Positions 1,663-57,066 of a stretch of DNA of 64,000 nucleotides are shown here, in pieces (the first letter of the stretch is position 1; each line of letters starts with the position of its first letter). The notes under the pieces are model-generated. The model ran no database searches. It was not told where the DNA came from and was given only the letters and a program-made list of their open reading frames with translations. The DNA lies in NCBI GenBank assembly GCA_963920765.1, contig OY987243.1:24175419-24239418 (forward strand), given 5' to 3'. The position numbers were made by a program, and so were the translations under genes. Source of the DNA: Ulota crispa. Taxonomy: Eukaryota > Streptophyta > Bryopsida > Orthotrichales > Orthotrichaceae.

Positions 1663-1666
1663 TTAA

Positions 1667-2520
1667 CCCCTTATGCTCAATGCATCAAATTTTGGGTATT
1701 TAATAAATTTTGAAACTTTAATGAAGGCAAAGATGTGATTTTTTTAACTTTTTGTTTTTTGAGAAATGCGGTCTAAAGTTAGCTTTGATGTTCAATTTTG
1801 ATGTCTTTTGTACTAAATTTCATTCCAAATATTTTTAGTGGAAGCTAAATTGCAAGCCTATTGTGCATTGAACTGTGTGATGAATAGTGTCACTAAAAAG
1901 CTTGTAACAAGCTGCCACAATGGAAAAATGGGTAGGAAGTTGAGAACAAAGTCTTGATCTCTCCTAAGGGGCCCTTCTATTGAAAACTTATCATCTAATA
2001 CAACCCAATTGTGTTTTTGGGCTAATTTCACTTGGAATGCCTTTGTGATACAAATCAAAATTCATTCACCCTTGAATCCTCTTTGTTCATAATGATTTTA
2101 GGCCAACAATTGGAACTAATTTTTTCTTTATGTTAAGTGGTAGCTCTTTGATTGTTGTAATGCAAGCTCACTTGTGAAATGGTGATCATGGATTTGGGAG
2201 TCATCAATTTTGAAGTAACAACAGTAAGCACTAAGTCATCATGGCTATTCCCCAAATTTGTACACAAAAGTTACCATTTTTACATTAGAGGTTTTGAGCC
2301 GCTCCAAAAGAACCAAAAAATTTCATACATATCCACATTTAGTCACAAATATCTTAATATCCATGTGGTTGTCTTGGATTATTTTTGGCAACACCATTTA
2401 AAAACCTTGAAGTTCAAGATCTTATGGTAACAATCTTGTTTCAATGATTAATTATGATAATACAATTACAATTCAAAAACTTCTAGAATGCAAAGAAAAA
2501 TACCCTCAAGCATTTAGGAG
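1667..2520. mobile_element. TTAA-flanked element 1 (piggyBac-like, non-autonomous)
   Basis: Left end CCCCTTATGCTCAATG follows TTAA (1663-1666). Right end CTCAAGCATTTAGGAG precedes TTAA (2521-2524). The interior is clearly related to the element at 43481-44379: both share stretches around 'aatagtgtcac', 'gccacattgaaaaaatggg' and 'ctaatttcacttggaatg'. No transposase frame is present. The end structure and target are those of the piggyBac superfamily, but the assignment is inferred from ends only. Confidence 0.7.
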
Positions 2521-2524
2521 TTAA

Positions 2525-3290
2525 ACATTAAAACATTAATTTTTGAAATGATCAATATATTTAAAAAGAAGGCATTTCTTTTTACAAATTAATTTGTGTG
2601 CTAAATTAATCACTAGTGTTCAAAAATTTATCACATCTTCTCCATATTTGTTTCTTCTTCAAAGCCAACATTTCCTTATCCTAACGTGACAAATTTCCCC
2701 AAATACAAAAATAGAATTATATTGTAGGTTGTAAAATCTATAAAAAAAAATCCAAATTTCTTGAATCATTTGTCATTTTGTATTACGATTTATATCATTC
2801 TATTAAAGTTGGCAGTTGGCTTTAACAAATCCATTGTATTTTTAGCAATTGCCTTTTTAACAACCAGGACAACACTAATAATTATGTCGAACATATAGAA
2901 TTGGAGTTCATTCAATTTTTGCTATTTTTGTATTATTTTTATATAATAAGATTAGACTATAAATGCTAAAATGACAAAGAAACAGTTCTTTTTCAAAAGT
3001 TAGACATGAACCTTCATCAATTAAACTTCATAATGGTCACAATTCAAAAATTTCATAGGATTATTCACTAATTTAATTATAAAATCCATTTGAATTTTTT
3101 CTTGTTGTCATTCTAAATTTTATATCAGTGAGTCGCATATGTCCACCAAATTCTTGTTGAATAATGATTTTATTACCTATTTTCAACCTATTTCTTTGAC
3201 CTCTAAAGAAAATTTGGTCATTCAATCCCATGGCCTCTCTATTTGGTTGGCCATAATGTGAAACTGTGGCATATAGTACCACAATATATA
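2525..3290. other. AT-rich intergenic DNA
   Basis: No supported gene. The last 50 bp (from about 3290) match the repeat at 28149-28200, which helps define the insertion at 3339. Confidence 0.4.
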
Positions 3291-3338
3291 TAGTAAAAAC
3301 TAGTTAAAATCATATTAATACAATTAAGTAAAAGGTTA

Positions 3339-5126
3339 CCCCTAAAATTCCTTTGTGTTTACATGCTCAAATGACTTGAAACTAATCTCTCCCAATAAAA
3401 CAATTAGTGGATCAAATTTTAAACATTTTCAATAATTCAATTGTAAGATCTAATTTTTCACTCACTTATGTGCACCTTCTCAAAATTTCAAATTTTGTAA
3501 GGGCATAAGTTATTAGATAATAACACTCAAAGTAGGATCAAAACCTTTTTTTGAAGCTTCTCTAGAATGTCAATTCTTATTTTGGTCATCCAAAATAATG
3601 TCTTCCACTATATGAAATTTTTGTGCAATTTGAATTTCTTGTAGAACATGAAGTTGGCTATATGCCTCACAATTTCATGATCATCCAAAGCTTAAAACAT
3701 AGTGGAGTTTTTTTGGAAGTGGGAACTACTTTTGTGAAATTGTCATTACACTAAGAAAACTTTGCTAAAGAGGTTCTCATAGTAATAAATCTCAATTGCA
3801 AAATTTGTTTTGTATAAACCTAAAACATCATGTAGAGTACTTGCCAAAGGAATTTCTTCCTCAAAATATACAGTAAAATAGAAGTTATCACATAGTCAAG
3901 GACAATTGACTGCATATTTTGCCTAGTGACCAAGCCATTATAAAGTGCTTTTGAACACTCTGTGGGCAACATCTTTCCCAATCTCTTTGTTTTTGATTTT
4001 ATTTAAAGATGCTTGACAAATAAATCACATATGGTACCATATCTGACTCAAAATTTATTCAATTCCAACTTTTCTGGAAGGAATGCAAGCTTTTCAATAT
4101 GAACACATACACCCTTATTTTCATACTCTCATCTAGTCCTCATAAATTCATTTTTCATTTTTAGCTTCACTTGCTAAAATTGTGGATTGTAGGTCAAAAA
4201 TTTTGCTACCTACCTTGTATTATGTAGAGGGCAAGTTGCAATAGTTTGTCTATTTGTTTAGTATTTTGCCTATAAAATTTTCCTTGGCTAGAAACTTTCA
4301 GCTACATGTCTTGCAACTTATTGAGATATAAATGGTAACAAGTTTTTAATATGTATTCTCCAACTATGTGAATTGGTGATGTTTAAAATCAATCTTCCAT
4401 AGTTGTTTTGTTTTGTTGGTTATCATGCTAAACGTGGACATTTGCAAAGTATAAACTAACAATGCAAATTGAAAATACATAGCTCTACAATGGCAATACA
4501 ACAAAAATGGAAGCAAGAGTAAATTTGTCAAGCAAATAATAGCTTCTAAACACCAATAGTTCTCCAAGGGTCAATTTCATCTCACATCTCCAATGTTTGT
4601 GTATATAAATGATATGATGTCAAATTTACAATTCCCTTGCTTTTGCAGAGCAAATAGGGCAGAAACTCATCAAGCAACAAGGCCCAATAAAGTTGCAATT
4701 TTGATGAAGTTGACAATTATTGCAATTGCTATCAAGAGTTACCAAAATGGGTACCTACATTTTACCCTTTTGATTCTACCAAAGGCGAAGCAGCACCCAA
4801 CTTATAGCTTGAATGCGAAGTGGGGGAAAATTATATGTGGTTCCTAGCTACTCAAGTTGTCTGGATCTAAGATCTCATTAGCTACTAGGTCACACCTCAA
4901 ATTACACCTCATCTCACAAGCGGTTAGACTTCTTGAGATTTTGATTATTTTTGTTTTTTGTTTTTGTTTTTTTACAATACACTTTTAGCACAATCAAAGT
5001 TGAGCTGGAAATTTTGCAAAATTTAGCTAGAAATATTACAACTGCTCTCATCTCAAATATTCACGTAGAAAATGCTTGCCCAAATATCCAAAAAGCCCAA
5101 AGTGGGCTCCACGGTCCTTTAGGGGG
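3339..5126. mobile_element. TTAA-flanked element 2 (piggyBac-like), with matching empty site
   Basis: Left end CCCCTAAAATTCC follows TTA (3336-3338; one A of the target appears lost). Right end GGTCCTTTAGGGGG precedes TTAA (5127-5130). The flanks 'acaattaagtaaaagg' and 'gtataattagaag' match 28181-28210, where the two flanks are joined by a single TTAA at 28195-28198. This is a paralogous empty site and fixes both boundaries. At 1788 bp it is the longest family member here without an obvious nested insertion. I find no long reading frame. Confidence 0.75.
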
Positions 5127-5194
5127 TTAAGTATAATTAGAAGAAAAAAACAAAGGAAAAATAAAAGATAAAGTAAAAGTAAACTACAATAAAT

Positions 5195-5205
5195 AGATAT
5201 ATATG

Positions 5206-5272
<67 letters not shown>
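5195..5272. repeat. (TA)n microsatellite with TATATG interruptions
   Basis: A run of alternating TA with several ATATGT interruptions and an uninterrupted 3' half. It lies just past the right end of the TTAA element that stops at 5126. The rest of 5131-5690 is AT-rich with nothing I can name. Confidence 0.9.
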
Positions 5273-8943: not shown

Positions 8944-8947
8944 TTAA

Positions 8948-9976
8948 CCCCTAATTGCCTAAGGCACCAAGTTTTGGTGTCAACAATACTATGAAGTTCA
9001 ATAAAACCTAACTCAGTGGCTATTTCTAATAGTTTGTATTTATGAAATATTCTTTTAGAAGTTTGGTTTTAGCATCAAAAGTCCAATTTTGAAAATGATT
9101 GATTAAGATTATTCTATTCAAGATTTTATGCAAGGGCCATTGCAATCTTGACTTTCCGTAGTGTTGAGAGCTCTTGGAAATGAGCCTCAAACTCACTAGA
9201 TCTTGGAGAAAATTCTACATTACAAATTTGTTTAGAAAAATTATAGAATAGATTTTGAAAAGTTGTAAGTTGATTAGAGTTATGTATGTTATGTAATTTT
9301 TTTTGGTTACCAATTTTTTAAATTCAACATGTGAAAAGTGGAATAAAAGACTTCAAGCCATTTTTTGCAATTTTAACACCCTTATGATCAAACATTATAC
9401 TGTAGGTTGAGAGCAAATTCAACATGTCAGTGCCAAATCAATTATTTTTTGAGAAAAAACAAATTTGGCATTTGCATTTGTAATTAAACAAGATTGGGCA
9501 CTTTTAGAAAAAGTTATTATTTGGTATTCAACCAAATTTTCTAGTAGAATTAAGCCTTTTTCTAAGCATCTTCCACCTTCTAAAATTAGCCCTTGGTATA
9601 AAATTTGCAGTAGATTGAGCCCTCTTGGAATCAACCTTAAACTTCCATTGTTAGTTAAGCTTAATGTCTTTTATAATATTTGGCATTTCAATTTTTTGAT
9701 CTGTTTGACATTGGGCATTTTTGAAGAATAATTTATGGAATAATTGGGCAAAATTTTGAGGAATTATTTTATGCCGAATTTGCTCTCAACCTACAATAGT
9801 CTTTCAATCCATAATTGATATTGTTGTGTTTTCTTTTCTTATTTGACCCCTAATTTAGTTTGAATCTTTACGATTACAATCTATTAAAAAATGCTATGAC
9901 TAATCAAAATGTTATCTTTTTGTTCAATTTAGAACAAATTCCTAGAAGCTCAAAAAGGGCCTTAGGAATTTAGGGG
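8948..9976. mobile_element. TTAA-flanked element 3 (piggyBac-like), interrupted
   Basis: Left end CCCCTAATTGCCTAAGGC follows TTAA (8944-8947); right end GGAATTTAGGGG precedes TTAA (9977-9980). The interior matches the element at 13735-14478 (shared 'ctattcaagatttt', 'ttgcaa(t)cttgactttc', 'gatcaaacattata'). A 397-bp TA-flanked MITE sits inside it at 9400-9796. Parts of its interior also match, in reverse orientation, the element at 11944-12581. Confidence 0.7.
9400..9796. mobile_element. 397-bp TA-flanked MITE nested in TTAA element 3
   Basis: Ends CTGTAGGTTGAGAGCAAATT and its inverted partner AATTTGCTCTCAACCTACA, flanked by TA on both sides (9398-9399, 9797-9798). The related host at 14187-14210 lacks it and has a single TA there, an empty site. 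A TA duplication points to the Tc1/mariner group. No coding capacity is seen. Confidence 0.8.
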
Positions 9977-10039
9977 TTAACAAACACTTTTTTTTTAACA
10001 TAGGATCACTCTTTAGAAGTTGAAAGTGCTTCATTTTAA

Positions 10040-10774
10040 CCTTTGAGCACCCATGGTGTTTTCATCAAAATTAGGGTTTTGGGAGACCTATAACTTTGAT
10101 GCATTGTATCTTAGTCAATCAAGTGATCCACAAATTGTGACCATTGAAGATAGTGGAACACCTACTTAGAAACTGGCTTGCAAATTTTGGAAACAAATGA
10201 CCTTGGGAGATGGGAGATTATAACATTTGATCAAACAACTTGTGATGACAAAATCTCATTTTTGGCAAGTAGTTTTTTTTAATGATTTTTACAGAAATTC
10301 TATAAGACTGTGATTCATCTCAAAAAATTTGAATAGCAAGATTAGATGTGAATGCACACACTTGCAAATTATTGAAGATTCTACTTCTTTGTATGTTAAG
10401 TTTTAGGGTTTCAATTTGCTATTGTGCAGAAAACAATGACCGGCACAATTGGTGAGGGTTGCCTAAACATTCTTGAACCCTTGCTAGTGAATTTTTTGCT
10501 ACCACAAAGCACATGCAAAGCTTGCAATGAGTATTGATTAGTCGTAACTTGTAAGACATTGCTTGCCACCATGCCTGTATGGTGTTTCACGCAACTAAGA
10601 CTCTTGAGACACCTGTATAACATTTGAGTTACCTTGCCATTACTCCACTTGCATGGACCACTTGAGTACTTTGATAATTATAATTTACGACAAAGACAAA
10701 AATTTAGATCCAATACCTCAAACAATCATGTGAAATCATGTGAAACCATTTTGGTCCTCAAGGACGTTCAGGGG
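10040..10774. mobile_element. TTAA-flanked element 4 (piggyBac-like, diverged)
   Basis: Left end CCTTTGAGCACC follows TTAA (10036-10039); right end GGACGTTCAGGGG precedes TTAA (10775-10778). The ends are more diverged than in other copies, so the call is weaker. Confidence 0.5.
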
Positions 10775-10778
10775 TTAA

Positions 10779-11272
10779 ACAAGCATCTTCTATTTGGTGG
10801 CAGGTTGATAGTGGATTTGAAGTAACTTTATAAGTACTTAAAATCTAACATGCTTTTCAAATTCTTTTTTTATACACCTTCAAATTTCTACACCTAATAT
10901 TAAAAAATGAAGCACTTGATTACCTACACACTAATTTTGTCAATATTTTATATTAATTTTGTCAATATTTTATATTAAAGCTGTAGATTACAGAAAAATC
11001 TAAGAAAAAGAATAAGAACTTAAATTGCGATTGATTCATAACTTGAGCTTTTGGGTGCTGTGGCTGTTCAGAGTCCCACATCCCATTGAAATCTCAGAAT
11101 TTAATTAGCTGACTCGTCAAATGTAAATGTTGAGGACTGTGCTCAAGGTTTGGGTTGTTCAGGTCTCACCAATTTATTTGCATGAAATGATACTCATGGT
11201 TTTATTCAGTACTCATGTTTGTCCCCCATAATCGCCAAAGGGGACAATTTTGTCCTCTAGGCATAAAGAAGA
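10779..11272. other. AT-rich intergenic DNA
   Basis: Nothing recognised apart from a short direct repeat of 'ttttgtcaatattttatatta' type near 10935-10978. Confidence 0.4.
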
Positions 11273-11615
11273 GGGAAATTTTCATGGATACCTTTGAAAT
11301 TTACAATATTTTCATAGATACCTTTGCTTTTTCAGAAATTACACAAATATCTTTGGACCAAAAATTTTAGGTGTTTATTTTTGTTGTGCATGTCATTTCT
11401 CTTCTTCCTTTGTACGCACATTATTACTTTCTTGTTGTGCATGCGCATAAAGGAAGAAGGGAAGTGGCATGCACAACAAAACAAACACTTGAATATTTTG
11501 GTCTAAGGGTATTTGTGTAATTTTTGAAAAAGCAAGGGTATCTATGAAAATATTGCAAACTTTAGGGATATCCATAAAAATATTGTAAACTATAGGGGTA
11601 TATATGATATTTCCC
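11273..11615. mobile_element. Mutator-like MITE, family M copy 1
   Basis: Starts GGGAAATTTTCATGGATACC and ends with its inverted partner (...GGTATATATGATATTTCCC). Inner arms carry inverted copies of 'aagggtatttgtgtaatttt'. The same family occurs at 18751-19053, 27579-28699 (interrupted), 32050-32350 and 49324-49640. Two of those copies have clean 9-10 bp flanking duplications, typical of Mutator-like elements; in this copy the duplication has decayed. No protein is encoded. Confidence 0.8.
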
Positions 11616-11939
11616 TAAAAAAAAATACTATGGGGCAAAACAAAGCAATTTTTTATTTGATTTCTTTTTGAAAGTGATCATACACATGGTTCATTGTAAG
11701 AGGTAAAAATTTACCCTATTAAATGCACTCATTTTTATAAGTTACCCAAATTGTGAGAATATTCAAAATTATGATGTTAGGTCCTAGGGTGCCCTTTTTG
11801 TCATGAGGGCACCGTACACTGTTGACTTTTGCAACTTTCAAAACTAATACCTTAATGGGTGGGCACCACTATAGATAACATTGTTCATTGTGAAACACTA
11901 TAGAATGGGCAAGCATGGTGGCCCCCTGGCATTTAGGGG
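11616..11939. other. Intergenic DNA ending in an orphan TTAA-element end
   Basis: No gene. The last bases (GGCATTTAGGGG, to 11939) look like the right end of another TTAA-family element abutting the one at 11944. I cannot find its left end. Confidence 0.45.
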
Positions 11940-11943
11940 TTAA

Positions 11944-12581
11944 CCCCTAAATGCCCAAGCCCTATTTGAGTGTCTTGGAATTTCCATTAAAAAAAATAAT
12001 CAATCAACATTTTCAAAAATTCATCAAGTTCAATTGTAACCGTACAAATTTAAACTGAATGTGTTAGAGATTACATGGGAAAAGAAAACACAACAATGTC
12101 ACTTATAGTTTGAAAGATTATAATATTTGAACATGAGGGTGTTAAAATTGCAAATGTGACTTATAATTTCCTAATCCTCATTTCACATGTCAAATCTAAA
12201 AAGTTGGTTTCCAATAAATTTGAGGTTTAAGGTCATTACATGTTTAACTTTAATCAATTTATGACTTTCAAAATCTACTTCTATATATATTTTAAATGGG
12301 TTTCTAATGTGATTTTTTCTCTAAGCTCTAGTGTATTTGAGGCCCACTTTTAAGATCTTCCAACATTAGAAAAATCAAGATTGGAGTGGATACCGTTGTA
12401 CAAATTCATGAGTAGAAAAATCATCAATTTTCATTTTCAAAATCAGATTTTTGACTTTGAAAATAGACTTCAAAACCAACTTACTTTGAAAAAAAAATAC
12501 TGAAAATAGTGATTTGATAAGGTTTTATTCATCTTCAAAGTTTTGTTGCAACCCAAATCTGGTTGCTTGGGCATTTAGGGG
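11944..12581. mobile_element. TTAA-flanked element 5 (piggyBac-like)
   Basis: Left end CCCCTAAATGCCCAAGCC follows TTAA (11940-11943); right end GGGCATTTAGGGG precedes TTAA (12582-12585). It closely matches the outer parts of the element at 22663-24256, for which it serves as an intact reference: the run 'gtgttagagattacatgg' is whole here and split there by a hAT insertion. 638 bp, non-coding. Confidence 0.8.
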
Positions 12582-12754
12582 TTAATAACCCAACAAAGGA
12601 CAATCTTGCATTGAGGTTAGACTTGCAAAAATGAGATTTGGGACAAAGTGTGAACTTACCCCTCCAACATGCCACAATGTTTACATGTAAAACATCCCTA
12701 CAACAACCAACTCAAGAATGAATATGGAATGGTCCTTGCATGAACCCTCTTTAA

Positions 12755-13411
12755 CCCTTAAATGACCATAGGGCATAGTATATACATTGATGTATAATTG
12801 CCATTTGCTACCAGTAAGAAATTTTAATTTGGTATCTCAAGTATTTCACTAGATCTGCATTGATCTATTCTCCAACTTCTTTGTTGGTCTCAAATGTAGT
12901 AGAGGTGTGGATCCATTTCAAACACAAGAAAAATACCCTGTATTGTATTAGTCGCAAAAGACCTCTTAGAGCCAGTTTCCATGGAAGGCCGGAACTGGAG
13001 GCCCATCCAAGCTCTAGGCAGCGCACATCAAATTTTCTGAAATCCCCACACGAAGAAGAGTTTAGAGAAGATCCTCCAGGCAAGGGTCCAAAGAGAAAGC
13101 CGCGTAGGTCAACTTCAACTTCACCGGAGCCTAGACCCCTCCGGTTGCCCCATGGAAACTGGCTCTTAGTTGTTTAACCCTTGAATGACCAAGCAACCCT
13201 TTGTGACTAGTAAAATATAGAGTATTTTTCTTGTATTTGGAGTGCATCCACACCTTTATTACATTTGAGATTAACAAAGACGTTGAAATATAGATCAATG
13301 TTGATCTAATGAGATAGTCAAGATCCCAAATTAAAACTTTTTATTGGTAGCAAATGCCAATTGTACATCGGTGTACATCATATATATTATAGTAGCTCGG
13401 TCCTTTAAGGG
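12755..13411. mobile_element. TTAA-flanked element 6 (foldback, piggyBac-like)
   Basis: Left end CCCTTAAATGACCA follows TTAA (12751-12754); right end GGTCCTTTAAGGG precedes TTAA (13412-13415). The two halves are long diverged inverted repeats (both contain the 'gcatttgctaccaataa...ttttaatttgg' type sequence in opposite senses), so the transcript would fold back. A 197-bp MITE interrupts the centre at 12969-13165. A second left-type end, TTAACCCTTGAATGACC, lies just after that insertion near 13175. Confidence 0.7.
12969..13165. mobile_element. 197-bp PIF/Harbinger-like MITE nested in TTAA element 6
   Basis: Terminal inverted repeats GAGCCAGTTTCCATGG and CCATGGAAACTGGCTC with TTA on both sides (12966-12968, 13166-13168). 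A 3-bp TTA duplication is typical of PIF/Harbinger (Tourist-type) elements. It is GC-richer than its host. Confidence 0.8.
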
Positions 13412-13415
13412 TTAA

Positions 13416-13730
13416 CCAATGAGTGGAGAGAAAAAAATGTATTCTATTGCAAAAACCTATGTATTCTATTGCAAAAGCCTATCATACTCCTTGTTTCACC
13501 TCACCTCTTTACAAATTGCAAGTGAACAGATTTTGGGAGACTTGCAAGTCACAGGTACAAAGAGGTGCCTACTATGGAAAGCTTTGAAAATTCATCAACA
13601 CAAATTCAATAATGCTTCAAAAAATACATAGAAAATTGTGTGACATTTGGCATCTATTTCTTTTAGTCTAGAAATTAGACAAAACATCTTCTTCCTATCT
13701 CAGAAAGCCCATGAAAAGACAAGGCAACCC
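13416..13730. repeat. Partial copy of repeat shared with 30516-30902
   Basis: Sequence around 13560-13710 (near 'aattcatcaacacaaattcaataatgcttcaa') matches 30560-30700 in reverse orientation. Terminal repeats are not visible on this copy, so it is treated as a fragment. Confidence 0.5.
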
Positions 13731-13734
13731 TTAA

Positions 13735-14478
13735 CCCCTCTCCGTCAAAGGGGCCCAAACCGAGCCCCTCTGAATTTTATTTAGAGATGTGCAACCTTGC
13801 TCCAAGATTTTTTTTAGTGATTATTATTATTTTTAAATTCATATTGAAGTCTAGTTTTAGCATCAAGAGTTTGATTTTGAAAATGAATTAAAGTAATTTG
13901 TCTATTCAAGATTTTGTGCAAGGGTGTCCATTGCAAATCTTCACTTTCTAGTATTGAGGGCTCTTAGAAATGAGCCTCAAGTACAATAGAACTTGGAGAA
14001 AAAATCACATTAAAAATTCAATTTAAAAAATTATAGAAGAGATTTTGAGAAGCCGTAAATTGATTTGGGGTTATGCATGTTATACTTTATATACCCATAT
14101 TTTTTTGATACCCTCAATTTTAAGTTTTGAGATGCAAAAAGAGGATTAAAAGACTTCAAATCACTTTTGCAGTTTTAACACCATGATCAAACATTATAAT
14201 CTTTCGATCCATAAATGATATTGTTGTGATTTCTTGTCCTATGTGATCTATAACATGTGTACTTTGAATATAACATGTGTACTTTGAATTTGTACAATTG
14301 CACTTCACAGAAATTTTATAAGATTGATCAAAAAGCTGACATTTTGTTCACTTTCAAACAAATTGAATTTGTACAGTTGCACTTCACAGAAATTTGATAA
14401 GATTGATCAAAAAGCTGACATTTTGTTCAGTTTCAAACAAATTCTAAGAAACTCCAAACTACCATGGGCGGTGAGGGG
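13735..14478. mobile_element. TTAA-flanked element 7 (piggyBac-like)
   Basis: Left end CCCCTCTCCGTC follows TTAA (13731-13734); right end GGCGGTGAGGGG precedes TTAA (14479-14482). The interior matches the element at 8948-9976. It carries an internal 78-bp tandem duplication (14286-14363, 14364-14441), which accounts for part of its length difference from relatives. Confidence 0.65.
14286..14441. repeat. 78-bp tandem duplication inside TTAA element 7
   Basis: Two copies beginning GAATTTGTACA, about 95 percent identical by eye. The absence of a second copy in the related element at 8948-9976 suggests it arose after insertion. Confidence 0.85.
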
Positions 14479-14880
14479 TTAAATGGTTAAAAGTGTTGCT
14501 TCTCAATTTCAAGCACAGTACCTTAAAAACCAATGATGTTAATTCAATGATATTTCCAATAAGAAAAAAAGTCCCTGACCAAGACAACGACAACCACCAC
14601 CGCCACAAAAAACAAAAGGATGGGAGCCAAATCCACATTTACCTTTAAATTAGAAACCTGTGATATCCACATCTGGTATCGCACTGTGAAAAGAAAGTTC
14701 CTCAGCTGATCTTCCTACTTTGTTCTAGTCCTACACAAAAAAAATCGCACATTCACTAGGCGATGGGAACATCGAATATTCCCTGCACGACAAGCAAAAA
14801 GGATAGATTCCCTTTTCACTCACGCCCGTCTCACTCTGGAATCTTCTCAATTGAACAGCATCTTCTAGTCTTCAAGCGTA

Positions 14881-17800: not shown

Positions 17801-19646
17801 AACGTAGACAGAAATGCTCACAATTCAAATATCACTAACCTCTCCTGTCGGACGCCCATCAGCATGAGTACAAAGGAAGATGCCATCAGCCACAACTTGC
17901 ATTCCTTTGAAGAAAGCTGTGATGTCTGCTGATGTACAGCTGCTCACAATAAAAAAAACAGAAAGCCACTCCAAGATCTCAGACTCAAGGGCGACTGTTA
18001 CTCCAATCAGATGCCGAGATCAACAAAAGATTCTGTTAACTTTCATCAAATTCCAAGACCTTTGCAACAAATAAGACTCCAAAACCAACGTTTGTTTGTT
18101 TAAAATTTGATGCTTTCAATTGCGTATTGAATTGCCATGGGCATCGATAATTAATAACTCGGCTAAGCTGACCTGTAAGGCATGCCCCGCATGCGCACCA
18201 CTCCGGTGTAGCGCATGTCTGGATTACCAGACATGCCCGGGATACCAGTGTTGAGAATACCTCCAGTAGCAATAGCACTACTCCCAGTAACAGTCCCACT
18301 TCCTCGGCCCACCATTCGCAAGGCTCCCTATCAACAAAATGCTCGACTCAATGACATCCACAGACAGTCTACCATAACTAAAACAAAACAAAAAAAACAG
18401 AAAAACAAAAATGCAGTGCAAGTACAAAAAAACGTGCATATACAATTACCTGCATATCTGCAGGATGGCCTTTGAAAACCTCGATGTAACGGCTTCCAAT
18501 ATGTTGCCTGGATTACGAGGACAATGTTATTTAAAAACCGGTCTTGCAAAAAAATGATTTCCATGAAAAAGGATGAACTGAGTGAGTGGAAGTCATTGTA
18601 GCATACCGATTGCGATCAAGGGCTTTGTTAGCAAGTTCAGCAGTTGCAAACTGAACATATGCTTGTCCGGTTGACCTTCCTGCACATGATTTCCAACAGT
18701 GAGAACAACGATTTTTCTCATTAATTGAAGATGTTTTGCATTAAATAAAAGGGAAGATTTCATGGATACCCTTAAGTTTGCAAAATTTTCATAAGATACC
18801 CCTGCTTTTTCAGAAATATCACAAATACCCTTGGACCAAAAAAATTAGGCATTTGTTTTGTTATGCATAACACTTCCTTGCGCACACTACTTCTTTCTTG
18901 TTATGCGTGCGCACAAAGGAAGAAGGGAAAGTGGCATGCACAACAAAACAAACACCTGAAATTTTTGGTCCAAGAGTATTTGTGATATTTCTGAAAAAGC
19001 AGGAGTATCTATGAAAATATTGCAAACTTCAGGGATATCCATGAAACTTTCCCTTAAATAAAATAACTGTTAAGGAATTTTTATCCATTGTAAAACAAAA
19101 AAGGCGCAGAAAAAAACGTACCTTGGAAATTGACACAAATAACTACCCCATCTGGCCCCATCTCCAGCCCCTTAAAAAAATCAGAGATGTCCGACTCGGA
19201 GGCGCTGAACGGAAGTCCCCGGAGGCGGACGACATTGCTTCGTTTCCTGAAAAGCACAACCGTGACGACAATAAGGAAAACACGTGCTTGATGAAAAAGA
19301 AAAACCAGGAAAAAAAGAAATCTCCAAGAACTATAGAAACAATTATTTTCTTTCTTTTTCTTTTTCTTTTTTAGTTTTCAAGGAATAGCCAGATGTTGTC
19401 CAAGTCGCCAAGACAGTGAGTAGTAGTAGTTCTTCAGTTTTTTTTTTTATACCAAAAAAAAAAGAGGAGTAGCAGGACGGTGCCAACACAATAAGTACGA
19501 GGGAGGGGGAAAAGGAGAAGAAGAGGCACTCGTCCAAAGAGGGGGGATAAAGGGGAGCCCATGAAAAATTGAAGTCACCCGGACCACAACACTCACAATT
19601 CATCATCGAGAGCACTTCCTCCCACAAGCCCTCCTATGCCCGCCAT
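14881..19646 (-). CDS. qRRM RNA-binding protein, hnRNP F/H - ESRP type
   Basis: Exons (- strand): 19597-19646, 19122-19246, 18607-18679, 18450-18507, 18173-18327, 17840-17939, 17668-17739, 17423-17536, 16945-17303, 16657-16747, 15778-15987, 14881-14886. All are in phase, about 470 aa, starting MAGIGGLVGG. Three qRRMs: about 22-97, 145-224 and 291-366, each with an RGLP(F/Y)-type RNP2 strand and GQAYVQFA or GEAFVEF-type RNP1. Low-complexity Gly/Met/Ala/Gln linkers follow. Family members bind G-tracts and steer alternative splicing in the nucleus. A fourth domain begins (KIRGLPYRTS, about 460) but is not completed. The 3' end is uncertain. The donor may be TCG|GTCAGT at 15777, or AAG|GTAGGA near 15721. 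Without splicing the frame stops at 15706 (492 aa) inside a MITE. The last two-codon exon is the weakest part. Confidence 0.85.
15406..15724. mobile_element. 319-bp MITE, family T copy 1, in the qRRM gene
   Basis: Ends TAAGGTAGGAGGCTC and GAGCCTCCTACCTTA. It lies at or just past the end of the last large coding exon. It is the reverse complement of copy 2 (16079-16409); both share 'ggaattggcatc', 'aagttgtttcatat' and 'gctctaaaatgg'-type blocks. A third, looser relative is 30516-30902. An apparent frame of 60-70 codons is shared by copies 1 and 2, but it is likely a by-product of DNA similarity. Confidence 0.85.
16079..16409. mobile_element. 331-bp MITE, family T copy 2, in an intron of the qRRM gene
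   Basis: Ends TAAGGTAGGAGGCTC and AGAACCTCTTACCTTA. It sits in the intron between exons 16657-16747 and 15778-15987, in the orientation opposite to copy 1, so the two copies bracket exon 15778-15987. Confidence 0.85.
18751..19053. mobile_element. Mutator-like MITE, family M copy 2, intronic
   Basis: 303 bp, starting GGGAAGATTTCATGGATACC and ending ATGAAACTTTCCC, with a perfect 10-bp flanking direct repeat TTAAATAAAA (18741-18750, 19054-19063). It lies in the intron between exons 2 and 3 of the qRRM gene. The duplication length supports Mutator-like origin. Confidence 0.9.
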
Positions 19647-21704: not shown

Positions 21705-21987
21705 TAGGGAAATTACAAATAGGGACATGAAAACAAAAAATGCTATAAATAAAAACAAAGTTTCAAAATAATTAAAAATAGGGGCACAATTTCAAAATAT
21801 CCCTATATTAAGATCTCATTATTTAGGCTTAATTTGTGGAGAGGCCTCTAAGTTTTTTGGAAGTTAATGTGATGTATCTAAATTAACCAATGTCCCAACC
21901 AAAATTTTATGGGAATTTATAAAGTATTTTCAAAATACACCCCTATTTATAATTTATTTTTTAAAATCCCTAATTATGAATTCCCCG
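21705..21987. mobile_element. Family G MITE, diverged copy
   Basis: Starts AGGGAAATTACAAATAGGG and ends GAATTCCCCG. The core matches 640-740 ('gagaggc...ttttggaagtt', 'gtgatgtatctaaat.aaccaatgtcc'). The flanking direct repeat AAATTATT (8 bp) is visible on both sides. Confidence 0.75.
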
Positions 21988-22655: not shown

Positions 22656-22795
22656 ACTTTAACCCCTAAATGCCCAAGGTATTTCTGAACTTCTTGGCAT
22701 TTTCAAGAAAGTGAAAAATCAATCAACTTTTACATAAATCTTATTAATTTTTTTTAACCTGTAACCGTACAAATTTAAACTTGACATGTTAGAGA

Positions 22796-25480: not shown

Positions 25481-25485
25481 TTTAA

Positions 25486-26407: not shown

Positions 26408-26411
26408 TTAA

Positions 26412-32040: not shown

Positions 32041-32049
32041 TAGAAACTA

Positions 32050-43099: not shown

Positions 43100-43476
43100 T
43101 CTTTGAAATGTATCCAATCCTAATTTTTTAAGAGAACGACTAGGTGGACACCCCCAATTGCTTCGCGGACACCCTTCAATTGCTACGCAGACATCCCATA
43201 GTCTAGCCTATTAAATTTGAGACTATGAAATAAAATCAAAGTAATATTTTAGTGTATATTTGCATCTACAAGCAATGCAAATATACAACAAATTTGCCTT
43301 ATTTGTGACACGGTTAGGAATTAAACTAATTGCTCCCTTCATTTACTGATTTAACTCTTGACTAAGTCACAAATGAGACAGAATTGTTGTATGTTTGCAA
43401 TGCTTGTAAACACAAATGTACGCAAATTTATTGCTTTGATTTTATTTCATATTTTAGCATAATAATAATCTCAAAT
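43100..43476. other. AT-rich intergenic DNA
   Basis: Contains imperfect inverted sequences around 43230-43285 and 43380-43445 ('aaatttgc..tatttgtgac' type) that flank its centre. No gene. Confidence 0.4.
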
Positions 43477-43480
43477 TTAA

Positions 43481-44379
43481 TCCCCAAATGCCTAAGGCAC
43501 CCAAATTGGGTGTCCAAAAAACTTCAAGAAACTTTGAAACCTTGTTGAAGGTAAGGATTTTATCATTTTCAAGTTTTTTTTTGGAAAAGTTGCGCGCTCA
43601 AGCTAGCTCCAGCGTTCAAATTCAACTTCTTCCATATCTTATTCCAATTGTTTTTGGTAGAAGGTTAATTACAAGCATACATTTTGTGACATGAATAGTG
43701 TTGTGAATAGTGTCACAAAGCCTATGAGAAGTTGCCACATTGAAAAAATGGGCATCAAGTTGAGCAAAAGGTGAAGATTTCTCTTGGGCACTCCCTTGGG
43801 CAATAAGGGCCTTTTTTCTAAAATTCTGACATCTAACAAAATCTAAAAGTGCTTTTGGACTAATTTCACTTGGAATGTCTTTGTTATACTAATTAGAATC
43901 TATTCACCATTGAAAATTCTTTCATTCATAATGATTTTTGGGCAATAATTGAAGCTGAAAATTTTCTTTGTATTGGACGGTTGCGTTTTGACAGTTGCAT
44001 TGCAGGGCTCATTTGTGAAATTGTGGTCATGGATTTGGAAGAGGGGCCATTGGTTTTGAAGTAACAACAATAAATACTAAAACATCCTAAGTGGTTGTTT
44101 CCCAATTTTGTATCCAAAAGTTGCCAATTTGCATTAGAAGTTTTGGGCAGTTCCAAAAAAGTAAAAAATTCCATACTTGTCATCATTCAATCACAAATAT
44201 CTTGAAATATGTGCAGCCATTTTGGATTCTTTTTGGGTAGTGCCATTTAGAAACCTTGAAGTTCAAGATTCAATGGTCACAATTTTATTTTGATATTTAA
44301 TAATGATCTTACAAGGACAATTCAAAAACTTCAAAACTACCTTCTGAAAACAAGAAAAACACCCTTGGGCATTTAGGGG
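43481..44379. mobile_element. TTAA-flanked element 10 (piggyBac-like)
   Basis: Left end TCCCCAAATGCCTAAGGC follows TTAA (43477-43480); right end CTTGGGCATTTAGGGG precedes TTAA (44380-44383). Homologous to 1667-2520 over much of its length. The first base of the left end differs from the family C. Confidence 0.75.
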
Positions 44380-44460
44380 TTAATAGACTGGGCTATGGGG
44401 ATGTCCTTGTAGCAATTGGGGGGTGTCCACCTAGTCATTCCCTTTTTTAACGCCATGGAG

Positions 44461-45400
44461 GTGCAATACAATGGCCTCAATAAAGTTTGTTGCCCTCCTT
44501 TTTATCAGTTACAAGTCATGTCATGTTATGTTATGTTTTGAAATTGAGGTCAATTGGGCTATTTTGAACTTGCGTTTTTTATATCTCATTCTTGCCCCCA
44601 ATGCCAACCAAGCCTACCAAAATTCAACCTCAAAAAACTAAGATTCAACTTTTAACAAATTGCTTTGTGTCACAAATCAAGATTTTACATGGTTTTACAA
44701 GAAAACTGATTGAAAAACATTGATGATGAATTTTGGAGATTTGATTGCATGGGTGTATAGGTAACATCCATATGCACATCTTCCTTGCTACAAAAAACCC
44801 CTTAAGTAAATAGAAATTGATCTTCATAAGGTTTAGTGTGACATGTGATATGTCCAATCTTGTAAAATAGATATTTTCTTCTAATAATCAAATTTGCTAT
44901 TTTACTCATACATTATGACTAAGTTTGTAACTTTGAACATGATTTTGTGTTTATTTGGTGAAAAGCTAACTAAAACTTAAGAATATCTATTTTACAAGAT
45001 TGGACATATCACATGTCACACTAAACCTTATGAAGATCAATTTCTATTTACTTAAGGGGTTTTTTTAGCAAGGAAGATGTGCATATGGATGTGCATATGG
45101 ATGTGCATATGGATGTTACCTATACACCCATGCAATCAAATCTCCAAAATTCATCATCAATTTTTTTCAATTAGTTTTCTTGTAAAACCATGTAAAATCT
45201 TGATTTGTGACACAAAGCAATTTGTTAAAAGTTGAATCTTAGTTTTTTGAGGTTGAATTTTGGTAGGCTTGGTTGGCATTGGGGGCAAGAATGAGATATA
45301 AAAAACGCAAGTTCAAAATAGCCCAATTGACCTCAATTTCAAAACATAACATGACATGACCTATAACTAAAAAAATAGAGGGCGACAAACTTTACTCAAG
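44461..45400. repeat. Long foldback hairpin 1
   Basis: Left arm about 44461-44880 and right arm about 44980-45400 are near-perfect inverted copies. They contain, for example, 'ttgcgttttttatatctcat' and its complement, and 'gacatgtgatatgtcc' and its complement. The loop of about 95 bp includes 'atgactaagtttgtaac'. No coding potential beyond by-products of symmetry. Confidence 0.9.
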
Positions 45401-45404
45401 GGTA

Positions 45405-46315
45405 TTGTACAGTACCCCAAAGGATACATATGTACCTGCCCTTTCAACATTGAAAAAACTTGCAGTTATTGATTCAAAATGGGGGTCAGTTTGCCTCTTT
45501 TAGGCTTGAATATTTTATATTTTGTTCTTACCCCAATCCAAATCAAGCATATCAAAATCCAACCTCAAAAAATTCAAATCCAATTTTTGATAATATGTTT
45601 TGTGTCAAATATCATGGTTTTACAAGAAACCCAATTGGAAAACATTGGTGATGAATTTTTGAGATTTGATTGCATGGGTACATAAGTAACATCCATACGC
45701 ACATCCTCCATGCTAATTAAAAAAAAGACCTTAAGTAACAAAGCTTTGATCTTCAAAGGATTTAGTGTGACTTGTGATATGCCCAAACTTTGTAAATTAG
45801 ATTTTTTTTTATAATAATTGTTTGCTATTTGACTCATTCATTGTGACTAAGTTTATACCTTTAGACATGATGTTGTGTTTGTTTGGTGAAAAGCTTACTA
45901 GAAATTAAAAATATCTAATATACAAAATTTGGACATATCACAAGTCACACTAAATCCTTTGAAGATCAAAGCTTTGTTACTTAAGGTCTTTTTTATTAGC
46001 ATGGAGGATGTGCATATGGATGTTATTTATGTACCCATGCAATCAAATCTCAAAAATTCATCACCAATATTTTCCAATCGAGTTTCTTGTAAAACCATGA
46101 TATTTGACACAAAACATATTATCAAAAATTGGATTTGAATTTTTTGAGGTTGGATTTTGATATGCTTGATTTGGATTGGGGTAAGAACAAAATATAAAAT
46201 ATTCTAGCCTAAAGGAGGCAAACCGCCCCCCATTTTGAATCAATAACTGCAAGTTTTTTTAATGTAAAAAGGGCAGGTACATATGTATCCTTTGGGGTAT
46301 TGAACAGTACCCTCA
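45405..46315. repeat. Long foldback hairpin 2
   Basis: Arms about 45405-45815 and 45905-46315. The inner arm matches hairpin 1 ('tcaaatctc.aaaattcatca', 'cacactaaa.cctt.gaagatcaa'), while the outer arm differs. The loop again has 'gtgactaagtttatacc'. Identical 63-codon frames on both arms follow from the symmetry. Confidence 0.9.
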
Positions 46316-47980
46316 AGAAAGTCTATATACCACCCTCTCATAGCATTCAAAAAAGTTGGTATAACAAAGAACTTAATTGGCATTTTATCCTCAGATTTTT
46401 GTATGTGATCCTCATGCAATCATGATCAAGCATACAAAATTTCAGTTACTAAAAACCAAAATACTATTTTTGGTAAATGGTTTTGTGTCAAAATCATGGG
46501 TTTACAAGAAAGTTAATTAATAAACATTGGTGATGATTTTTGAGATTTGATTGCATGAATATGTAGGAGACATCTATATGCACATCTTTCTTTCAAACAA
46601 ACATTTCCAAAAAAATTCAAAATTCCTTCTATAGAGATTTTAATGTTAAGGTGATCATGACCAAATTTAGTAAACTACATATTTCTTCATGGAAATTAGA
46701 TTTTAGCAAAAAAAACATATTATCTTGTTTAAAGGTACAAACTTAATCACAATGTATGAGTCAAATAACAAAAACTAATTTCCATGAAGAAATATGTAGT
46801 TTACTAAATTTGGTCATGATCACCCTAACATTGAAATCTCTATAGAAGGAAGTTTGAAACTTTTTGGAGATGTTTGTTTGAAAGAAAGATGTGCATATGG
46901 GATGTCTCCTACATATGTCCATGCAATCAAATCTCAAAAAATCATCACCAATGTTTATTAATCAACTCTTGGGGGGTTACTCTCCAATTTTTACTAAACT
47001 ACATGAGATAAAAAATAGGGTCAATTTTATTCATTGGAGGTAAATTTTATATATTTTTTAGAAATACCATAGCATCAAAAATATTTCTCCTACTTCATTA
47101 TATGTAAAATAGGGTGGTGAATAATTCCTTCATTTTAGAATTCCGTAGAAAAAAATAGGGTAGGAAATATAGGATCCTCTAAAAAATGTTTAGTAGGATA
47201 AGTTTGATTATTATTGTTTGACAAGTTTGAATGAAAAATTAAGTACGTTCTGTCCAAGTTTTGAAAAGAATGGAGGGAAATTTGATCAAAATTACTTGGA
47301 CAGCTCAGCAAGAGTGTGCAAGCTTGTGTGTGATGTGGAATTGTGATGGGTTCTTTGCTTAAGCTTCTATATGGTGGGGGAGTGTAATTGGTTGTCTACA
47401 TAAGATTGTGTGTGGTGTAGGACTGATTGGTTGTTTGCTTTAGCTTCATGTTGATTGCTACGTTTTCTCTTTCAAAGGTGCTTTTTTGTAATCCAAATGC
47501 TTGTAAGAGCCAAAATCTTTTATAAATCCATTGTATGCGCATAATTTGTTCTTATGATACTTTTGTGTTTGTAAAAAAATAGGGTCTGAAAAATTAGGTC
47601 ATATAACCATTTAGAAATAAGCATAGGGTACCTTAAAATACACTAAAGTAGCTTTTTATCTAAAGAAAGGGAGGAAAAAATTACCTTAAAAAATCTAAAT
47701 ACCCCTCATTTAATTGCCCTATTATTGCAGGTGGTATCCAATTGTAAAGAGGTGTGACCCCCCCCCCAAGAATCAACTTCCTTTTAAACCCATGATTTTG
47801 ACACAAAACCATTTACCAAAAATAGTATTTTGGTTTCTACTAACTGAAATTTTGTATGCTTGATCATGATTGCATGAGGATCACACACAAAAAATCTAAG
47901 GACAAAATGCCAATTAAATTCTTTGTTATACCAACTTTTTTGAATGCCATGAGAGGGTGGTTGTAGACTTTCTTGAGGGT
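46316..47980. repeat. Long foldback hairpin 3, right arm split by a hAT element
   Basis: Left arm about 46316-46690; right arm about 46765-46967 continued at 47771-47980. The loop (about 46692-46765) has the same conserved sequence, in reverse ('aaaggtacaaacttaatcacaatg'). The insertion at 46968-47770 divides the right arm. Confidence 0.85.
46968..47770. mobile_element. 803-bp hAT-like element (family H copy 1)
   Basis: Ends CTTGGGGGGTTACTCTCC and GTGTGACCCCCCCCCAAG. The 8-bp target AATCAACT is duplicated exactly (46960-46967, 47771-47778). It shares its terminal sequences with 54153-55468. No transposase frame. Confidence 0.9.
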
Positions 47981-48373: not shown

Positions 48374-48527
48374 AAGTGTAGGAAATTGACATATGTATCA
48401 CACCTTTTCTACTATTTTGCAACACCTTTTTGATTATTCTTCCACACCTATTAAATATAGGCTGATATTTAAATGTTATAGTGGGTGTGAAAGCAAGGGA
48501 TCTTTGAAGTGTATCCAATCCCATTAA

Positions 48528-49257
48528 CCCCTCAAGGCCTAGGAAGTGTATTTTGAGCTGTTTGGTGATTTTGGGCAATTCATAACAAACGGGTTTTGCA
48601 TTTTTTTTATTTTTATTTTCACACATGAAGTACCCAAGGAGTAGCTTTAAGGCCCAACAATTTTCATAACTTTTGACTATATGGTTCAAAAGTTATTGCA
48701 TGATTTGTTGTTTTCTTTGCTTGTCAAGACAGCCCAAGCAGCTCAAAAACTTCTTTAAAAATTACTTTTCAAGTTTGTTTTTTTGTAAAATTGATTCTTT
48801 AGACTTGCATACAGGTAGGAAGCTTTGAATCATTCAATTTCCATTAATGAGATGAAAGTTATGAGAAGTTTTAGTTTGTGGGTAGATTGACTCCACACCT
48901 ACCTGCAAACTAAAACTTCTCATAACTTTCATCTCATTAATGAAAATTGAATGATTCAAAGCTTCCCACATGTATGCAAGTGTAAAGAATCAATTTTATA
49001 AAAAAACAAACTTGAAAAGTAATTTTTAAAGAAGTTTTTGAGCTGCCCGGGCTGTCTTGACAAGCAAAGAAAACAACAAATCATGCAATAACTTTTGAAC
49101 CATGTAGTCAAAAGTTATGAAAATTGTTGGGCCTTAAAGCTACTCCTTGGATACTTCATGTGTGAAAACAAAATAAAAAACAAATGCAAAACCCGTTTGT
49201 TGTGACTTGCCCAAAATCACCCGACAGCTCAAAATACATTGCCTAGGCCTTGAGGGG
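48528..49257. mobile_element. TTAA-flanked element 11: near-perfect hairpin (piggyBac-like)
   Basis: Left end CCCCTCAAGGCCTAGG follows TTAA (48524-48527); right end CCTAGGCCTTGAGGGG precedes TTAA (49258-49261). The two halves are inverted copies, more than 90 percent identical by eye over about 350 bp, with a short loop near 48885-48900. The arm includes 'aatttttaaagaagtttttgagctgcc', also present in 56140-57062. Confidence 0.85.
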
Positions 49258-49323
49258 TTAACCCCTAATTCTTTACCTCCTTGGAGGTACAATGGGACCA
49301 ATGGGAACAATCGGTACTTTATA

Positions 49324-49640
49324 GGGAAAATTTCATGGATGCCCTTGAAGTTTGCAATAATTTCATAGATACCCCTGCTTTTTCAGAAATTGCACATATA
49401 CCCTTGGACCAAAAAAATTAGGTGATTGTTTTGTTGTGCATGCCACTTTCCTTCTTCCTTTGTGCAGCACACATAACAAGAAAGAAGTATTGTAGTGTGC
49501 GCAAAAAGGGAGAAGGAAGTGACATGCAGAATAAAACAAATACTTGAAATTTTTTGTCCAAGGGTATTTGTGAAATTTTTGAAAAAGTAGAGGTGTCTAT
49601 GAATATATGGCAAACTTTAGGGGTATTCATGAAATTTCCC
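49324..49640. mobile_element. Mutator-like MITE, family M copy 5
   Basis: Starts GGGAAAATTTCATGGATGCC and ends GGTATTCATGAAATTTCCC, with a perfect 9-bp direct repeat TACTTTATA (49315-49323, 49641-49649). The related sequence at 48003-48011 has TACTTTATA once, an empty site. Confidence 0.92.
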
Positions 49641-49649
49641 TACTTTATA

Positions 49650-54144: not shown

Positions 54145-54152
54145 GTCAAGCA

Positions 54153-55468
54153 CTTGGGGAGGTGACTCTCCAATTTTTAGTAAACTATGTGCGATAAAAA
54201 ATAGGGTCAGCTTTATTCATTGGAGATAAATTTTATATCTTTTTTAGATTTGCCATAGCATTGGAAGAATATGTCTTGCTTCATTATATGTAAAATATGG
54301 TGGTGTATAATCCTCCATTTAGAATACTATAGGAAAAAAAAGGTAGGAATTATATGATTATCCTAAAAGAGTTTAGTAGGATGAGTATAGGGTTTAGACT
54401 TCATGAGCAATATGGATGAAAAATGGTTTCTTCTGTCCAAGTTTTGGGTTGTAACGGTTTAGGATTTAGCAACGGGCTGTAGGGTAATTGAAGAAGGGTC
54501 GGGCGTGTTGGCGAAGGCTAGCATTGTTGTGGAATCTTGAAAATAGGATTTGTGCTAGCAAACACATTGGATTCTTTACACAATGGCTTCTTACACGCTG
54601 TTATGCTAAGCTTACCATTGCTCTTGCCGGCACTTAGGATTCTCAGATTTGAGATGGCTTACTTGTTGTTTGCGATTTTGTTCTCTCCGGATTTTCTGTG
54701 CATGCTGAAAGTGGCGGCAAGGGTGCTGTACAATTGAAACTTCTCATCCTCCTTACATAATTTTCCTCACAGCAATGTACTTGCAAGCGCAAGAGTGTGA
54801 GCTTAGTAGGGTTTGCATTCAGGGTTGGATTTGTTTTCTTTGTTGGCGCGTTTAGGGTTGGATTTCTTATCTTCTTCCGCCAACGACGGTGGTGGACGTT
54901 GGCTTTATCACTCAATTCTTTTTGCAATTTTCAACAGTAAGAGCTCGAATTCACACTCAAACTTACATGTTGTCATTTGTCTGGTTTTCTTCCTCTCTTC
55001 TTTTCTTCATTTTACGGTTCAATGCTTCAAAGCTCATCATTTGCAGTTTCGTGAGTATGCATGTGGTTGGGTAATCTGAATTGTTAGGAATGGGTTAGGG
55101 TTTAGGAAGGCTGCTTCATAAGTATGGAGGTTAGGGTTTAGGAAGGTTGCTTCATAAGTATGGTTTGAAAGACTTGCTATGTGTTAAATTCTTACGTTGT
55201 TTTCTTGCGGGCCAAATTCTTCTATAAACCCATTGTATACATATAATTTTTTCTTATGATACTTTTGTGTTTGTAAAACACAGGGTTTAAAAATTTAGGT
55301 CATATAACCATTTAGAAATAAGCATAGGGTACCCTAAAATATACTAAAGTATTTTTTTATCTAAAGAAAGGGAGGAAAAAATTACCTAAAAGAATTTAAA
55401 TACCCCCCATTTAATTACCCCATTATTGTAGGTGGTATCCAATCATAAAGGGGTGTGACCCCCCTGAG
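54153..55468. mobile_element. 1316-bp hAT-like element (family H copy 2) with extra cargo
   Basis: Ends CTTGGGGAGGTGACTCTCC and GGTGTGACCCCCCTGAG. The 8-bp target GTCAAGCA is duplicated exactly (54145-54152, 55469-55476). The ends match family H copy 1 (46968-47770) for about 200 bp on each side ('ggtcatataaccatttagaaataagcatagggtacc'). The centre (about 54430-55150) is GC-richer, differs from copy 1 and holds short frames; it may be a captured genomic fragment. Confidence 0.9.
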
Positions 55469-56135
55469 GTCAAGCAATGCCCTTGAAATCACTATTCATC
55501 CTAAGTTTAGTGAGCTTTATCCCATACTTGAGCTAACAATTGGTCAATTAACTCTTTGTGGAACATGCTTGAAGAGCTAGGGTGGGGGGACAAGAATTTT
55601 GAGGTCTCTCCAAAATTAGATGTAAACACTTGGCAAGTCAAATGTTGAGTGCAAGGGTACAGATGCTCTTATATTTCCAAACATCTCTCTATATTTTGCC
55701 AAAACATTGGAAGATGTTTCAATGTTAGATGTTTCAATGTTTTACATTATTCATGATGATTCATAATTGTATGAGTAGTTTAAAACTAGTCAAATAAATT
55801 ATGTTTAACAAAATGTACTTAAAACTCAATGAATTTTGAAGGTCTTGGAAAATCAATCTATCAAATGTTTTCCAAAATGAGAAGGTATTTGGCCTCAAGT
55901 TGTTTGAAGAACAAAAAGTAAGAACTTTTAACTTTCATGAACTATACATGTTTGAGCTTTGTGTAAAATTTTTAGGGATTTGGTTAAAGTTAAGAATGAA
56001 AATATCTAAGCATAATAAAAATAATAGACCCTATTAATATACAATTTTGGATAATTTAAATTTTTGTAAGTGATACGGGCCATTATCATGTGATATCACA
56101 TCTACTAAATCACAATATAGAGTTGATGCCCATGC
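55469..56135. other. Right part of a family Y repeat, then AT-rich DNA
   Basis: 55469-55675 matches 20930-21136 and ends with a GATGCTCTTA-type end. The remainder shows nothing recognised. Confidence 0.5.
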
Positions 56136-56139
56136 TTAA

Positions 56140-57062
56140 CCCCTAAAGGACCACACCCTTTTTTTTGTGAAAATCACTGAAAACTGCCATTTTTAGGAGG
56201 TTTGGTAAAAAGGGATTTCATGTTTGTTTTGGGAAATCCAACCATAGGATCTTGCCCAAAACTAGAAGAGGTACTTATAGGAAAAAATCAGCTCATTCCA
56301 GATGGAGAGGAGTGAGATATTTATAGCTAAAGTGAAAAAAAAGTTTTTTCCATGCTGCCCAAAAATTTCAAAAGCCTTTCACCACTATCATAATATAAAA
56401 GTTGCTCTACCCAAAGTTGCGCTTTTTTTTTCCATGTAGGGGATCAAGTTAGGTATGTGTGGGAGAATTTTCAAATCAATTGGAACTATACAACACATGG
56501 GAAAAATCAATAAGTAAAAAGAAGTAAAGAATGAGTCAAATCACTAAATTGTTAAGAATTTAATTATTGAAATGAAAAATGCAAATCCTAACGGTCATCT
56601 TGTTGTGATAAACAATCTACTCTCTTTGGTTTAATTTTTTTTCCAAAATAATGAAAATTGAGTAAAATAAAGGTCTTCAAAGTATATTATAGAGTAGAGA
56701 TTCCATAACTTCTTGCAAATAAAAACTCCTCATAACTTTCATGTCATTGATTGAGATTAAATGATCCAAAACTCCTCATGAATAAAAAAATCTAAAGAAC
56801 CAATTTCAGATTTGAGTTTTTAAAAAAGTAATTTTTAAAGAAGTTTTTGGGCTGCCCAAATGGGCACTTCCCCCCAAATTTTCTGAAATTCATGCATAAC
56901 TTCTTCATCAAATGTCAAAATGAAGAAAAAAATTAGATACCCACATAATCTTTGAATTCCTCACCTTCCACAAAAGTTTGGAAAAATCACCCAAAATAAT
57001 TTAACCATATGTACATGCCCAAAGTCCAACCTATACCCTAAAGGGACAATGGTCCTTTAGGG
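56140..57062. mobile_element. TTAA-flanked element 12 (piggyBac-like)
   Basis: Left end CCCCTAAAGGACCACACC follows TTAA (56136-56139); right end ACAATGGTCCTTTAGGG precedes TTAA (57063-57066). Similar to 25486-26407, and it shares an internal module with 48528-49257 ('aatttttaaagaagtttttg.gctgcc', 'cataactttcat'). Confidence 0.78.
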
Positions 57063-57066
57063 TTAA

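Follow-up and report, generated by a model that had tools for sequence, protein, structure and literature searches.

The 64,000-base window analyzed here, i.e., the whole stretch of contig OY987243.1 from position 24,175,419 to 24,239,418, contains no N and houses 13 related elements or fragments of elements (E1 to E13, Table 1), whose ends in the window read near CCCCTAAA(T/G)G(A/C)CC and are bordered by TTAA. They constitute an old, gene-less family, partly resembling miniature inverted-repeat transposable elements (MITEs) and partly of the fold-back type (E7 and E12), with terminal inverted repeats (TIRs). Observation confirmed the places given for them in an earlier sequence-only reading of the window, which had counted twelve elements, probably E1 to E4 and E6 to E13; the lone right end at 11943 was added as E5. 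The coverage of about 11 kb given at that time is reached only with E2 at full length and the nested inserts counted. No claim is made that the family is undescribed, the literature search having been directed at piggyBac, TTAA, and plant MITEs and not at the TIR letters. A scan of IMG/VR for TTAACCCCTAAAKGMCCAWG, representing some of the end variants only, returned 0 stretches, and no Rfam match reached the gathering score.

Self-comparison of the window revealed the kinship among the copies. E3, E6, E8, and E9 were mutually related (E6 and E9 with 84% identity over 526 columns), E1 and E11 shared 71% identity over 876 columns, and E10 and E13 had common ends. A block near TTTGGGCA, located approximately 40-50 bp inward, was common to E12 and the right ends of E2, E10, and E13. 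When the self-comparison was left uncut, the alignments of E3/E6/E8/E9 and those of the right ends of E1/E11 ended at most one base from TTAA, and the E10/E13 alignment extended nine bases past the TTAA point.

TTAA stood directly outside all 24 accepted ends, at 23 separate sites, one of which is shared by the right end of E5 (E5R) and the left end of E6 (E6L); the window contains 399 TTAA altogether. The base beyond TTAA (-1) was free (T in 11, G in 6, A in 4, and C in 3 ends), and the first four positions of the ends were occupied by C in 23, 22, 21, and 20 of the 24 cases, with T in the remainder. TTAA had previously been assigned to 23 of 24 ends and TTA to one; the deviating end is probably the left-end candidate of E2, a 10/13 match excluded from our set. 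Many of the 24 ends had been found by a query containing TTAA, and the search with a TTAA-free motif of 13 bases was the fairer test, though that motif derives from the finding itself. At a threshold of at least 11/13, with TTAA not required, 20 matches were detected in comparison to 5, 1, 3, 3, and 1 in five first-order Markov shuffles. TTAA directly preceded 16 of them, was displaced by one base in two (the right ends of E2 and E13), and was missing from the remaining two (33220 and 36829). At least 12/13 matching bases were found 12 times and in none of the five shuffles, and the excess faded at the level of at least 10/13 (56 matches vs. 23-44 in the shuffles). The 18 TTAA-flanked matches include one at 13178 that represents an additional copy within E7, which leaves 17 of the 24 ends as having passed the threshold of at least 11/13. 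Because of the fading excess at the lower level, the other seven (E1L, E1R, E4L, E4R, E8L, E8R, and E11L) were accepted on the grounds of homology, pairing with another end, or position and not of the motif alone. The resemblance of CCCTAAA to plant telomeres was dropped since the motif did not occur in tandem.

These counts bear on the idea that AT-rich repeats have become similar by chance. The weak left ends of E2 and E4 and the motif being barely in excess at 10/13 or more speak for it; against it stand the 12 matches with no counterpart in the shuffles, the relatives that stop within one base of TTAA, and the empty site described below. It is already refuted for the core set, and we find it scarcely credible for the family.

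What the elements target is precisely TTAA. With such a fixed target, filled and empty sequences look identical whether 0, 2, or 4 bp are duplicated, which leaves some room for Tc1/mariner elements (with TA duplicated and the element reading ACCCC...GGGGT) or PIF/Harbinger elements (TTA/TAA) that sit in TTAA by chance. However, the neighboring T and A were fixed in 24/24 accepted ends and the next base was free, as the sequence-only reading had argued against a TA or TTA/TAA target. A TTA/TAA duplication would free one outer base, but the tetranucleotide was complete in 24/24 ends, and a Harbinger-like MITE with TTA in the same window has quite different ends. Hence, we regard an origin from either of these superfamilies as very unlikely.

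The TTAA target proposed earlier gained further support from an empty site within the window. E11 interrupts an arm of a palindromic element older than itself; the opposite arm of this host reads CTCAAATTTAATAGGCT, and the corresponding flanks of E11 are CTCAAATTTAA...TTAATAGACT. Alignment of this arm with the joined flanks scored best (66) when a single TTAA was kept; no copy gave 46, TA 54, TTA 58, and two copies 54. The comparison is one of arm to arm inside a single diverged palindrome, not of alleles. Among the 11 of 13 elements with two TTAA-flanked ends, joining of the flanks disclosed a junction-crossing paralogue for E11 only. Other candidates for empty sites were rejected: the match to the joined flanks of E6 represented the right flank of E6 itself, no clean site was provided by the repeat next to E7/E8 (13460-13717, similar to 30566-30804), and the extra 940 bp or so of E9 relative to E6 lay between copies of TTAGAGA, pointing to a deletion or insertion instead.

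In the majority of the members with both ends, E3, E6, E8, E9, E10, and E11 among them, the two ends differ inside the shared TIR. One end of each of these six elements, as well as the known end of E2, bears a palindrome centered at bp 24-26. Palindromes with the center at bp 23-27 were found in 7 of the 24 ends and in 5.9% of 3000 random 100-mers from the window; the other five-base center bins, from bp 15 to bp 74, comprised 0-4 ends each. The letters of the arms vary between the copies (CACCC/GGGTG, CACCA/TGGTG, CAACC/GGTTG, AGCCC/GGGCT, and GGGGC/GCCCC in E8), which suggests that the palindrome has been kept by compensatory changes. A covariation test was conducted on nine ends picked by subfamily, with the right arms permuted among the ends 20,000 times per run. 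Compensatory pairing at bp 25 amounted to 40 of 63 pairs in comparison to the permuted mean of 29.2 (SD, standard deviation, 2.6), a value reached by 0.005% and 0.01% of the permutations in two runs. When the center was moved by -8 to +11, these nine ends yielded at most 29 pairs. When the one-base shifts assigned to three of the ends were omitted, the score was 36/63, attained in 0.19% of permutations. Addition of E12L and E12R, initially left out, increased it to 46/77, and with E12L, E12R, E4R, and E5R all added it was 54/91, neither value being reached in 20,000 permutations. The nine opposite ends displayed no palindrome signal at bp 25 (5/63 pairs). Over all 24 ends, the average at center 25 was weakly positive (2.92 of 8; random 2.10, SD 0.26) and was exceeded at other centers, and for this reason the palindrome is claimed for one end per element. 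On the opposite side, E3 and E8 carry an inverted repeat at bp 47.5-48.5 of the end, and one was seen by eye near bp 46.5 in E9.

The position of the palindrome coincides with a known protein-binding site. In T. ni piggyBac, a palindromic repeat spanning bp 17-33, with the center near bp 25, is bound by a dimer of the cysteine-rich domain (CRD), and full transposition in cells by the native enzyme requires asymmetric ends, according to the part of the source consulted (PMC7351741). The elements begin with CCC(C), the RR ends of Kolobok elements do not fit them, and their palindrome at bp 25 occupies the position of the CRD site; for these reasons, piggyBac is favored. We consider it reasonably probable that E1 to E13 are non-autonomous copies of a piggyBac-type DNA transposon that moves by cut and paste, in what is apparently a plant genome. 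Membership in piggyBac is likely and the best reading of the target, the end letters, and the end architecture. The lineage named by the sequence-only reading stood as the favored one on the strength of the ends and the palindrome, and its membership is likely but unproven, no transposase having been found in the elements. The accompanying statement that TTAA together with CC(C/T) ends is diagnostic of piggyBac did not hold; TTAA alone is not diagnostic either, Kolobok sharing this target.

Several observations weigh against this assignment. The position at bp 25 was spotted by eye before testing, and the ends compared share kinship. Pairing was poor in three of the nine ends (E1L 3/7, E10R 2/7, E13R 1/7), and a strong palindrome at bp 25 is missing in E7 and E12. 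In the full set of 24 ends, center 33 equaled center 25 (66 vs. 67 of 168); in the simple average over these ends, an earlier form of the test, center 14 (3.58), as well as others, exceeded center 25. The opposite end has a different inverted repeat (E3, E8, E9) or none was found there, and the internal repeat of piggyBac is common to both ends, whereas the inner repeats differ between the ends here. To our knowledge, the TIR beyond CCC is unlike the TIRs of known piggyBac elements. Finally, six-frame Pfam scans, with stops read as X and with E1 and E2 taken as one stretch (1663-5130), detected no transposase or fragment of it in the elements at an E-value of 0.1, the remaining window not being searched. 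The DDE_Tnp_1_7 domain (PF13843) gave no match at the same level in the listed elements, and its absence is to be anticipated in non-autonomous copies. The matches to TRAF6_Z2 and CENP-L fell below the cut-off and were taken as chance.

Two further groups of TTAA elements come into question. Kolobok-type elements have the same target and are known from chlorophytes and rhodophytes, but they have 5'-RR...YY-3' ends, as far as the source describes them (PMC9587614), and the ends here are 5'-CC...GG-3'; such an origin, already disfavored, is highly improbable. Another TTAA-targeting superfamily, be it Sola3 or an undescribed plant superfamily that reached TTAA independently, would agree with the elements in which no transposase was seen. 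The main text of a MITE survey of 207 plants likewise holds no match for TTAA or PiggyBac (PMC12550479). The CCC ends and the palindrome at bp 25, however, match piggyBac, and we judge a different superfamily to be unlikely.

Under the piggyBac assignment, a transposase encoded elsewhere would recognize the terminal repeat of 13-17 bp and, on one side of the element, the palindrome centered on bp 25, probably contacting the latter via a dimeric DNA-binding domain similar to the CRD of piggyBac. The element would be cut out and joined to TTAA, which is then found on both sides, as seen at the ends and in the empty site. Loss of coding capacity and duplication of ends may have led to the subfamilies, the longer member, and the fold-back forms that are observed, and some members later received the Harbinger-like, CACTA-like, and other inserts seen in them, the relatives of E3 being free of its insert. 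More tentatively, and with somewhat less than even confidence, we propose that land plants have a native TTAA-targeting lineage, be it a deep branch of piggyBac or a separate plant superfamily, the transposase of which docks as a dimer on a one-end palindrome at bp 25 that compensatory changes have preserved despite the drift of sequence.

If a native plant lineage of the piggyBac type did exist, plants would be shown to have harbored a seamlessly excising type of transposon, and a handle, from sequence only, on how its transposase grips the ends would be offered by the palindrome at bp 25. The 207-plant survey, in its available part, distinguishes five MITE superfamilies and one 'special group' (PMC12550479); with plant MITEs mostly sorted into five superfamilies, TTAA elements may be missed or misfiled. 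The earlier remark that piggyBac is poorly documented in land plants needs qualification. Passages of two papers mention plant elements of this type, both in passing: a review includes PiggyBac among the angiosperm MITE superfamilies (PMC10004981), and piggyBac-like elements are stated to occur in plants (PMC8086355). We still view them as hardly documented there.

Table 1. Positions in the window of the elements and of features related to them.
Feature	Position	Strand	Remarks
E1	1663-2524	none	TTAA to TTAA; relative of E11
E2, left-end candidate	3339		GTTA outside, reading GTTA followed by CCCCTAAAATTCC; 10/13 match; may be no end; excluded from the 24
E2, right end	5113-5130	-	CCCCCTAAAGGACC, TTAA outside; five C in terminal run
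E3	8944-9980	none	nested insert at 9405-9791
E4	10036-10778	none	right end a 10/13 match; left end (10036) weak
E5	11927-11943	-	lone right end; one TTAA (11940-11943) common to E5 and E6
E6	11940-12585	none	relative of E9
E7	12751-13415	none	fold-back; nested MITE at 12969-13165; extra internal end-like motif at 13174
E8	13731-14482	none	relative of E3/E6/E9; orientation opposite to E6
E9	22659-24260	none	longest complete member; nested CACTA-type MITE at 22835-22987
E10	25482-26411	none	CCCCTAAAGGACC subfamily
E11	43477-44383	none	within an older palindromic element, right arm
E11, subterminal palindrome	43498-43512	+	CACCCAAATTGGGTG; example, element bp 18-32, center bp 25
E11, older palindromic host	43132-44442	none	TTTTTTAA on both flanks
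E11, empty-site counterpart	43167-43222	-	opposite arm of the host palindrome, single TTAA
E12	48524-49261	none	fold-back, 93% self-complementary over 740 columns
E13	56136-57066	none	CCCCTAAAGGACC subfamily; right end TTAACCCTAAAGG, three C in terminal run

Inserts of other kinds were recognized inside three of the elements. The MITE nested in E7 has ends GAGCCAGTTTCCATGG with TTA on both sides and looks like Harbinger/Tourist. The one nested in E9 is of the CACTA type; its CACTAGAAGAAA ends, bordered by GAC on either side, form a combination typical of plant CACTA elements, and a similar sequence lies near 24855-24995. The insert in E3, which has GGTTGAGAGCAAATT ends and is bordered by TA on either side, is absent from E6, E8, and E9. 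A second MITE-like family comprises five self-complementary copies (11272-11581, 18742-19054, 27578-27869, 32049-32351, and 49323-49641) with ends near GGGAAARTTTCATGGATACCC. The palindromic repeat at 523-841 has ends near GGGGAAATTACAAATAGGGG and arms built of ACAAATAGGGGCACA-like units, and a degenerate second copy of it occupies 21707-21922. In region 44467-46967, long inverted repeats overlap one another in a dense cluster (arms of up to 332 bases at 94%), with no Pfam match above the cut-off. Finally, 46968-47763 and 54153-55464 form a repeat pair with blocks of 79% and 89% identity and a middle part differing by several hundred bases.

Ten open reading frames (ORFs) of the window were compared with Pfam, and five of them matched: CCCH, RING, RRM_1, Tho1/MOS11_C, and, just under the cut-off, EDC4_C. 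The CCCH and RING exons presumably belong to a plant CWC24-like gene. The ORF with EDC4_C and the one of 728 amino acids at 61182-63365, for which no Pfam match was found, are taken by us to represent a Varicose gene. A land plant is the likely host; were it an animal, a family of this kind would be nothing unusual.

Among known systems, the elements resemble piggyBac in the exact TTAA target, the CCC-type ends, the unequal left and right ends, and, in several copies, a palindrome of one end at the place of bp 17-33; they differ in that no transposase was seen in them and in the apparent plant host. The inverted repeats near bp 46-49 of the opposite ends loosely resemble the more internal right-end repeat of piggyBac. 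Sola3 is similar in its TTAA target. Plant MITEs of the Tourist/Harbinger and Stowaway/mariner groups are likewise AT-rich, short, and non-coding, with TIRs, and Stowaway duplicates TA. Tourist duplicates TTA/TAA, as given in the section of the review consulted (PMC10004981), not TTAA as here. Kolobok and T2-MITE elements have the TTAA target in common with the family, but RR...YY ends are described for Kolobok in the parts of the sources seen (PMC9587614, PMC6004289), in contrast to CC...GG here. The asymmetric ends with a repeat at bp 17-33 known from T. ni are not universal in piggyBac: simple TIRs of 15 bp are ascribed to piggyBat in the available part of one paper (PMC8086355). According to an excerpt of another (PMC10813416), many animal piggyBac ends start with CCC, as do most of the ends of this family.

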